Positions 23,216 through 25,109 of a stretch of DNA of 64,000 nt are shown in pieces. This DNA comes from Elusimicrobiaceae bacterium (GTDB taxonomy: Bacteria > Elusimicrobiota > Elusimicrobia > Elusimicrobiales > Elusimicrobiaceae). Positions within the stretch are counted from its first letter, which is position 1. Every line of letters starts with the position of its first letter. A model generated the notes under the pieces. The model was given only the letters and a program-made list of their open reading frames with translations, was not told the origin of the DNA and searched no databases. The translations under genes and the position numbers were made by a program. The DNA lies in the NCBI GenBank assembly GCA_017525025.1, contig JAFXUJ010000007.1, positions 310,001 to 374,000 on the forward strand, read 5' to 3'.

Positions 23216-23902
23216 TTATTTATTTGTTAACTCGTTTATACGCTTTTTGGCAAGCGTATAATACTCTTCAAACTCTTCTCTGTCATCAGGGTTGGGGCAA
23301 GGAACGGCCAATGATTTGGTATACATTTCAATCGCGCGCGGCAAATCCGCATTTCCGTCTATGCCTTCTTCGTAAAAGCGGCCGGTGGCATAATACGCGC
23401 CGGGCGATACAGGTGCTTCCTGTGGGTGCGATTCCAACCAAGCAAGTACGCGTTGCGCGCTTTGTATTATTATCTTTCCTTCGGCCGGATGTTGTTTAAG
23501 TGAAGAAATGGATTCTTCGTCGGAAAATTCAGCACATAATTCCATTAAAATATCAATGTCGTTTTCTTTTAAAAAGCGGTTGTAGAAAGTATGTATTTGG
23601 GCCAGTTTCCCTTTTGAAGTTTTGGTAACTACCCCAAACCAAGAGCCAATCCAAAGAAACAGTAACATACCAACGGCTTTGCCGGGCTTGTCAAAGATAT
23701 TTGACAAAGATTCCCCGCCCAAAATACACGCATAACCTATGCCTACTACAATGGCCGTCATCACCAAAAAACACACCAAGCCCAGCGGCCTAATGGTATG
23801 AGTGTTTTTGCTTACCTTGCGTACCACAAACGGAACAAACCAAATGATGAGTATACTTGTTGCTAAAATAATACCAAGTAATAATATAAGCATAAGAATC
23901 AC
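23216..23902 (-). CDS. Membrane protein with a Sel1/TPR-like tail, function unknown
   Basis: 228 residues. Three hydrophobic segments (about 1-27, 42-66 and 79-95) are followed by a soluble part. Near residues 165-225 a stretch reading YYATGRFYEEG...RAIEMYTKSLA resembles a Sel1-like or TPR hairpin pair. I do not recognise the family. It stands alone on the minus strand, diverging from the ncRNA gene. A start ATG at 23902 is preceded by AGGAGT. Confidence 0.6.
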   Translation of the reverse strand: MILMLILLLGIILATSILIIWFVPFVVRKVSKNTHTIRPLGLVCFLVMTAIVVGIGYACILGGESLSNIFDKPGKAVGMLLFLWIGSWFGVVTKTSKGKLAQIHTFYNRFLKENDIDILMELCAEFSDEESISSLKQHPAEGKIIIQSAQRVLAWLESHPQEAPVSPGAYYATGRFYEEGIDGNADLPRAIEMYTKSLAVPCPNPDDREEFEEYYTLAKKRINELTNK

Positions 23903-23947: not shown

Positions 23948-23975
23948 TTGATTTTTTATTTTTTATGCCTATACT
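23948..23975 (+). promoter_or_regulatory. Promoter of the unidentified RNA gene
   Basis: TTGATT, 16 nt spacer, TATACT, placing transcription start near 23982. It is followed by no open frame with a ribosome binding site on this strand. Confidence 0.6.
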
Positions 23976-23981
23976 ATCCGT

Positions 23982-24420
23982 ATGGTGATATGCCCGCAGG
24001 CAGGTTTGGGTGTCGCCGGTTGCAGTCGGGTGGCCCGTGAGATGGCCATCTGTGCATAGTGGGTGTCTGTTGTCGGCTGGTTTTGCTTGGTGTGCTTGTT
24101 CCGGGCAGGTTTTTCGGGGTATTCTCGGGGAGCCGGGTTTCGGGTTAGACATTTGAGCATACTTTAGTCGGCGGCGCAATAGGGCGCAAGCGTTGTGCGT
24201 GCCTATTGTGGGGTAGGGCGCCTGATAGGAAAGCGGTCGTGCAGCATGTCTGCTGCAGTGAATGCGTGTTCTGTGCCCGGTTGATAATTTGCTTCGGCTG
24301 GGAGAATGAACGAAGGCGGCGTAAGTCCTGACACTGGCCTGCAAGGTAGTACAACGTAAGGAGTAATGATGAAGCACCATAGTTAAACCCCTCGGTTTAT
24401 TGAACCGGGGGGCCTTTTTT
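23982..24420 (+). ncRNA. Unidentified structured RNA, about 440 nt
   Basis: The interval between the genes at 23902 and 24522 is over 600 nt and contains no credible CDS. It has a promoter (TTGATT-N16-TATACT), a strikingly G/T-rich 5' half, and a strong Rho-independent terminator at its end. Hairpins can be read by eye: 24177-24208 has a CAATAGG/CCTATTG outer stem and a GCGCAA/TTGTGC inner stem with a 3-nt loop, and 24240-24257 has TGCAGCA/TGCTGCA with a 4-nt loop. A possible long-range helix joins GCAGGC (23996) to GCCTGC (24337). I looked for and did not find the conserved cores of RNase P RNA, tmRNA, SRP RNA or 6S RNA. Open frames on either strand here look like shadows. Family unknown. 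Confidence 0.6.
24388..24420 (+). terminator. Terminator of the unidentified RNA
   Basis: CCCCTCGGTT pairs with AACCGGGGGG around a 5-nt loop (one G-U pair), followed by CC and six T. Confidence 0.8.
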
Positions 24421-24521: not shown

Positions 24522-25109
24522 ATGTATAAACAAACATTCTTTGCAGCTGTGAGTATTTTGTTATCCTTGCCGATGGCAGGCACTGCGGGAACTAGTTCCC
24601 CCGTTAATACCCAGGATTTAAATAATAATGTGACGCGGTTGATCTTTCAACAACGGCATACGGATTATGTGGAGTGGGTGAAAGCTCTTAAAAGAGAGGA
24701 ATACAAAGTTAATAAACCGGGGTACATGGGCTATACTTCCTACGGAATGTTTACAACGAATTATACACAGCGTCCTGTGAAAAAGGATAAAGATTTGTAT
24801 AGACAACGCGTGAACATGATACAAAATCAAATGGATAATCACCCGGTGCTGAACGGGTATACCTTCCAAGTACCTGTACCGGAAATGCTGTCTAGTTTAA
24901 CGATTGAAGAAATGAATTTTCTGTATGGTTTCCTTGAGCAGTCCGTTGAGACAAAAGATTTTGATTGGGTTTTTGAACCGACGGTTTCCAAACCGGAAAA
25001 AGCAGTAGTGGAACTGACCATTAGCGCGGTATATAACACCAAACTTATTTTACGTATGGATGCCGCAAAAAAATACGTCTACTTCTTTAAAGATGCAGTA
25101 ACAAAATAA
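24522..25109 (+). CDS. Exported protein of unknown function
   Basis: 195 residues with a signal peptide (hydrophobic about 5-20, ending AGTAG/TSSP). The mature part is rich in Tyr, Asn and Lys, has no Cys in the mature region, and looks like a mixed alpha/beta globular protein; the C-terminal 40 residues (VVELTISAVYNTKLILRMDAAKKYVYFF) suggest beta strands. I recognise no family. AGGAG lies 6 nt before the ATG. It stands alone between the RNA gene and a bidirectional terminator. Confidence 0.7.
   Translation: MYKQTFFAAVSILLSLPMAGTAGTSSPVNTQDLNNNVTRLIFQQRHTDYVEWVKALKREEYKVNKPGYMGYTSYGMFTTNYTQRPVKKDKDLYRQRVNMIQNQMDNHPVLNGYTFQVPVPEMLSSLTIEEMNFLYGFLEQSVETKDFDWVFEPTVSKPEKAVVELTISAVYNTKLILRMDAAKKYVYFFKDAVTK

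Follow-up and report, generated by a model that had tools for sequence, protein, structure and literature searches.

The window (the whole 64-kb stretch of DNA that was analysed) contains a gap between the genes at 23902 and 24522, for which a preliminary description had reported a promoter, a strong terminator, a G/T-rich 5' half and no credible coding sequence. The gap was real: its open reading frames were mechanical only and had no Pfam match. A protein-coding reading of the locus was rejected, as both sense and antisense frames shift in place and length among the homologues. The promoter and the terminator were both found, and we recognised three further elements that had been overlooked, namely a hairpin (24268-24311), long-range helices between 23996-24018 and 24315-24342, and a five-codon open reading frame (24369-24386). 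The features of the locus are as follows:

23948-23975, plus strand: sigma-70-type promoter TTGATT-N16-TATACT, with TTGA(CA)..TATAMT common to the family
23976-24420, plus strand: structured RNA gene, with a putative start a few nucleotides past the -10 element and the end after the T-tract
23996-24001, plus strand: 5' strand of P1, GCAGGC, predicted to pair with GCCUGC at 24337-24342
24007-24018, plus strand: 5' strand of P2/P3, GGG-GUGUCGCC, predicted to pair with 24315-24330
24019-24264, plus strand: variable domain, different between lineages
24268-24311, plus strand: hairpin H, with covarying outer arms (GUUC/GAAC here) around a near-invariant GGUUGAU...UUCGGC stem-loop (24279-24298)
24315-24342, plus strand: 3' strands of P3, P2 and P1, with a conserved UAAGU bulge (24322-24326)
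24358-24363, plus strand: Shine-Dalgarno (SD) sequence AAGGAG
24369-24386, plus strand: minigene ATG AAG CAC CAT AGT TAA, encoding MKHHS (MMKHHS with a start at the ATG of 24366), conserved in length and not in sequence
24388-24412, plus strand: 3' hairpin and intrinsic terminator CCCCTCGGTT-TATTG-AACCGGGGGG, beginning 1 nt past the stop codon and followed by a T-tract, the two together occupying 24388-24420

Promoter hexamers of the TTGA(CA) and TATAMT type, usually directly preceded by CCC, were found at the same place in 55 of the 55 orthologues for which the 5' end could be read; this count is a description and not an independent test, since the RNAs had been delimited with the help of promoter-type patterns. 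The -10 hexamer of one orthologue, L090, was TAAACT. The G+T content reached 69.7% over 23976-24170, in comparison to 50.8% in the window, a value attained by 137 of 63,805 segments of the same size. The predicted folding energy of the RNA was -178.8 kcal/mol, as compared to -161.5 +/- 5.3 kcal/mol for dinucleotide shuffles (z -3.3), of which 1 in 100 was as good. When the Rfam search suggested in the preliminary description was carried out with the covariance models of Rfam 15 over the window, only an unrelated tRNA scored above its curated threshold, and none of the models exceeded threshold on 12 homologous loci. The best match at the RNA locus, NsiR1 (20.7 bits against a cut-off of 39, E 0.14), was rejected as a terminator look-alike below the cut-off.

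Homologues were searched for with a covariance model of the 3' module (R1), after which the loci were read. The model gave one strong copy per genome; in total, 57 of the 66 genomes in the genus have an orthologue (55 by a strong match to the model, one verified by eye in G012 and one cut by a contig end in G035). The nine genomes of the genus with no match are all drafts of 40 to 410 contigs. Within the genus, blastn returned colinear 5' and 3' pieces, and the terminator sequence, which was partly used for finding the family members, matched as a pattern roughly once in each of 30 genomes, whereas a reversed control pattern had no matches. We detected no convincing copy in five other genera of Elusimicrobiaceae, and the region downstream of glyS in other genera held no SD-minigene-hairpin arrangement. 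The weak R1 matches that we read in other genera (L117, L118, L126) proved to be terminators, and those in the same genus (L116, L119-L122, L124, L127, L128) looked like ordinary terminators or chance matches. The pattern of hairpin H, run against the genomes of 84,980 species, retrieved 18 records, and those named to a taxon were all Elusimicrobiales, Elusimicrobiaceae or Elusimicrobium. The Elusimicrobiaceae that host the RNA are animal-gut bacteria. As far as could be found, the family is genus-restricted and has no earlier description; nothing on such an RNA in Elusimicrobia was found in the literature covered, which left out preprints and most subscription papers.

The usual gene order, with names that we read from the sequences, was glyS on the strand of the RNA, a variable gene position, the RNA, a small lipoprotein gene and lipA on the opposite strand, and a SpoIID-like gene again on the strand of the RNA. 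Of the 29 contexts that were read, most have the next gene (lipoprotein or lipA) in convergent orientation, so that the RNA appears to be a gene of its own and not a leader. In the window, 24522-25109 encodes an exported protein with no Pfam match, and in a minority of genomes proteins of similar appearance are encoded next to the RNA, on one side or the other. The regulatory link to this neighbour, considered in the preliminary description, found no support, as most genomes carry the RNA without it. Taken together, the homologues, synteny, single copy, covariation (see below), lack of an Rfam match and presence of RNase P RNA and tmRNA at other sites agree with the earlier proposal of a free-standing RNA of an undescribed or clade-limited family, and on this comparative evidence the locus is an independently promoted gene of a clade-limited structured RNA family; the word noncoding holds only in part, given the conserved five-codon frame with its strong SD.

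The 5' end of the RNA is predicted to pair about 340 nt downstream, just before the SD, and thereby to close the body. In the window copy, five of the six P1 pairs had a pair probability of about 0.99, while for P2/P3 it was 0.31-0.37. According to duplex prediction, GGG-GUGUCGCC pairs with GGCGGC-UAAG-UCC, leaving the UAAG(U) bulge. The compact stems described earlier at 24177-24208 and 24240-24257 were placed in the lineage-specific variable domain, outside the conserved core; this domain, which lies between P3 and H, is for the most part absent from L091 and L095, the shortest members, with RNAs of about 230 nt.

Compensatory base-pair changes were found across the homologues. We used an arm-swap test, fitted to no alignment, in which partner arms were exchanged by permutation among 22 sequence clusters. 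The outer arms of H differ by lineage and still pair (GUUUCC/GGAAAC, GUUC/GAAC, UUUGCC/GGCAAA, GCGUUUCGC/GCGGGGCGU), at -10.0 kcal/mol with their own partners versus -6.7 kcal/mol with foreign ones (p 5e-5). The 5' 75 nt likewise paired better with their own than with a foreign strand, both for P3 (p 3e-4) and for P2/P1 (p 5e-5). In a covariance-model alignment of the 3' module, which is itself fitted to the model, 94.1% of positions in pairs were paired and 14 of 19 pairs had two-sided changes, in comparison to 6.0 in shuffles. The covariation thus supports the proposed fold.

The minigene lies between the closing helix and the 3' hairpin. SD and ATG were present in every member, and the frame was of five codons in 54 of the 56 orthologues (55 tabulated plus L096, read separately, with L111 counted in the family-consistent frame MIDTK); the two exceptions, L080 with four codons and L089 with eight, depart from this length by whole codons. 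The stop codon, which alternates among TGA, TAA and TAG between members, ends 0-2 nt short of the C-run of the hairpin. The chance of a random frame stopping exactly at codon 6 is 0.039. The encoded peptides varied widely: besides MKHHS in the window we read MKVHS, MKVQN, MTEQQ, MKEEK, MKGRP, MKTQS, MNAGN, METSR/N/K, MDTAR, MKEST, MTQTK, MTPSN, MNERK, MHSCN, MRSHT, MVSTK and others. Among 21 cluster representatives, codons 2-5 were just 38% identical, with frame and stop kept. Within the METSR group there were 6 nonsynonymous and 3 synonymous variants, as compared to 23:9 possible changes, and conservation of the peptide therefore appears not to exceed the neutral expectation, being near the neutral ratio. 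The stretch from SD to the end of the frame was predicted to be more open than the rest (0.59 versus 0.34 unpaired). An SD followed by ATG, three to eight codons, a stop and a hairpin had no other instance on either strand of the window. We infer translation of the minigene solely from this conservation, and consider it very probable that the locus represents an RNA family with a translated minigene. To our knowledge, no RNA family has been known in which the exact length of a five-codon frame is selected while the peptide drifts.

In the METSR group, the T-tract is interrupted, and pairing in the stem of the 3' hairpin can continue into the stop codon (GAACCCC/GGGGUUC). Because of these two features, and because many members have the hairpin loop UUGGAUAAA/GGAUA in common, the 3' hairpin may do more than terminate transcription. 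In two genomes we noticed a second RNA of about 430 nt with its own promoter and an unrelated body (L123 in G002:C10 and L125 in G052:C2), just downstream of a gene for an HTH-like regulator. Its tail resembles that of the main RNA, with an SD, a six-codon frame (MEQSTN) and a hairpin. Since the same tail occurs on another body, this suggests that the minigene tail is a reusable module.

RNAs of the OLE, GOLLD and ROOL type are long and independently transcribed, with a conserved core, variable domains and a function not evident from sequence. The RNA described here is like them in length, in its own transcription and in its combination of core and variable domains, but it has no Rfam match and ends in an obligatory five-codon frame, for which we know of no example among RNAs of that type. 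With tmRNA it has in common a structured body, a short reading frame and use of the ribosome; it differs in having an SD and an AUG and in lacking both a tRNA-like end and a conserved tag, and a normal tmRNA is found elsewhere in the same genomes. Dual-function sRNAs (RNAIII, SgrS, Spot 42 type) also are regulatory RNAs with an internal reading frame, but the frames known from them are longer and each specify a conserved small protein, whereas here the length is kept and the sequence is not. It is quite improbable, in our view, that the short formyl peptide (fMKHHS, fMETSR, fMKEST and so on) is the active product of a dual-function RNA, for example a signal. The peptides are polar throughout, with T, K, S, E, N, Q and H predominating and T at codon position 2 rare (12/177), and groups such as METSR or MKEST have a peptide in common; however, its identity changes wholly between lineages and drifts almost neutrally within one, and an active peptide would leave both the constant distance to the hairpin and the large folded body unexplained.

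A reading frame beside a terminator is also the classic layout of an attenuator, and in the window copy a gene on the same strand starts at 24522. If the RNA were a 5' leader in which a leader peptide controlled termination before a downstream gene, such a gene should be conserved past the terminator; no same-strand downstream gene was conserved, and the convergent neighbour seen in most contexts leaves this reading very improbable and, judging from synteny, largely refuted. Known leader minigenes, such as axe-txe mg2 and the hexapeptide minigene that precedes a stabilised transcript, are likewise very short SD-led frames whose peptide is irrelevant, and they either bind a ribosome and so stabilise the transcript or control a gene in cis; however, they lie upstream of a protein gene on which they act, whereas the present RNA ends with no conserved downstream gene (PMC8708949). 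The hexapeptide case brings up another explanation, which we regard as rather unlikely though worth keeping in mind: the RNA could be a trans-acting or enzymatic structured RNA, with the minigene only protective, so that an SD-bound ribosome would keep nucleases away from the 3' end or from a cleavage site close by, peptide and translation being irrelevant. An SD-bound ribosome before that minigene has been reported to stabilise the transcript against RNase E irrespective of translation (discussed in PMC8708949), and the peptide of our RNA is not conserved. Against this, SD binding alone would need neither an in-frame stop nor a fixed frame length, both of which are kept in 54 of 56 orthologues.

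It is extremely improbable that the RNA is a highly diverged housekeeping RNA (RNase P, tmRNA, 6S or SRP RNA), none of whose cores had been recognised in the preliminary description and none of which our search placed at the locus. RNase P RNA (RF00010; G000:C2:143169-143502, 206 bits) and tmRNA (RF00023; G000:C2:29952-30296, 129.5 bits) were found elsewhere with strong scores, whereas 6S RNA (RF00013) had no match anywhere in six genomes of the genus and SRP RNA (RF00169, RF01854) none in the genomes tested, which could leave either role to the new RNA. 6S RNA is a rod of about 180 nt with a central bubble, and the length, the fold and the minigene of our RNA do not fit it. For SRP RNA, there is no evident partner protein. 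The domain IV pattern gave only scattered matches with two mismatches, the Ffh M domain had no match in 5 genomes, and across 90 genomes of the family, G000 included, the SRP54 GTPase domain gave only weak fragment matches, two of which were at the cut-off (controls 14/14). Elusimicrobiaceae thus appear to lack the signal recognition particle, including the GTPase domain of Ffh and FtsY. That few Elusimicrobia have SRP homologues, and that many have lost SRP, has been remarked before (PMC7987157); our survey extends this remark, for Elusimicrobiaceae, to whole genomes and to SRP RNA. As the absence is family-wide and the RNA is present in one genus only, a direct replacement of SRP by the RNA is unproven.

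The reading that we favour, and whose prospects of being right or wrong we consider evenly balanced, is that of a structured RNA on which a ribosome docks. Measured from the first base of the P-site codon, the leading edge of the ribosome reaches about 15-17 nt downstream (PMC7897499), its boundary for RNase R is at +17 (PMC6238534), and the 3' hairpin starts at +19 to +21 relative to the ATG. This spacing fits the mRNA footprint of a ribosome on the ATG. A ribosome would initiate on the minigene and, while the ATG occupied its P site, would reach to 1-3 nt short of the hairpin, so that the hairpin could remain folded during a wait at the start codon. Once this ribosome had advanced to codon 5 in the P site, it would have opened the entire 5' arm. 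The minigene would in this way act as a ruler of fixed length, holding the ribosome clamped between the body of the RNA and its 3' hairpin, with translation opening the latter. Stable docking would need a pause, since a terminating ribosome should recycle fast. Length and not sequence would be conserved because the ribosome just fits between body and hairpin at the start, and the combination of a kept length with a drifting peptide points to the physical footprint of the ribosome, not to the peptide, as the selected feature. Alternatively, the five-codon constancy might be explained by a spacing between SD and hairpin that is constrained for another reason.

Such docking would likely serve either to let the state of translation set the stability or activity of an RNA bound to the ribosome, or to let the RNA occupy or modulate ribosomes; the sequences are compatible with both directions, the RNA acting on the ribosome or the ribosome and its translation controlling the RNA. 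We found no precedent for a length-conserved five-codon frame in a structured RNA family. More tentatively, and as a proposal that we hold to be unlikely in its full extent, the family could represent a new class of ribosome-clamping RNA, in which body and 3' hairpin bracket the ribosome and length is the only conserved property of the minigene. It would be gated by translation, in a family apparently devoid of the SRP pathway, and may contribute to an alternative means by which ribosomes are sensed or placed. If true, this would be a new mode of engagement between a structured RNA and the ribosome, in a lineage with unusual protein-targeting machinery.
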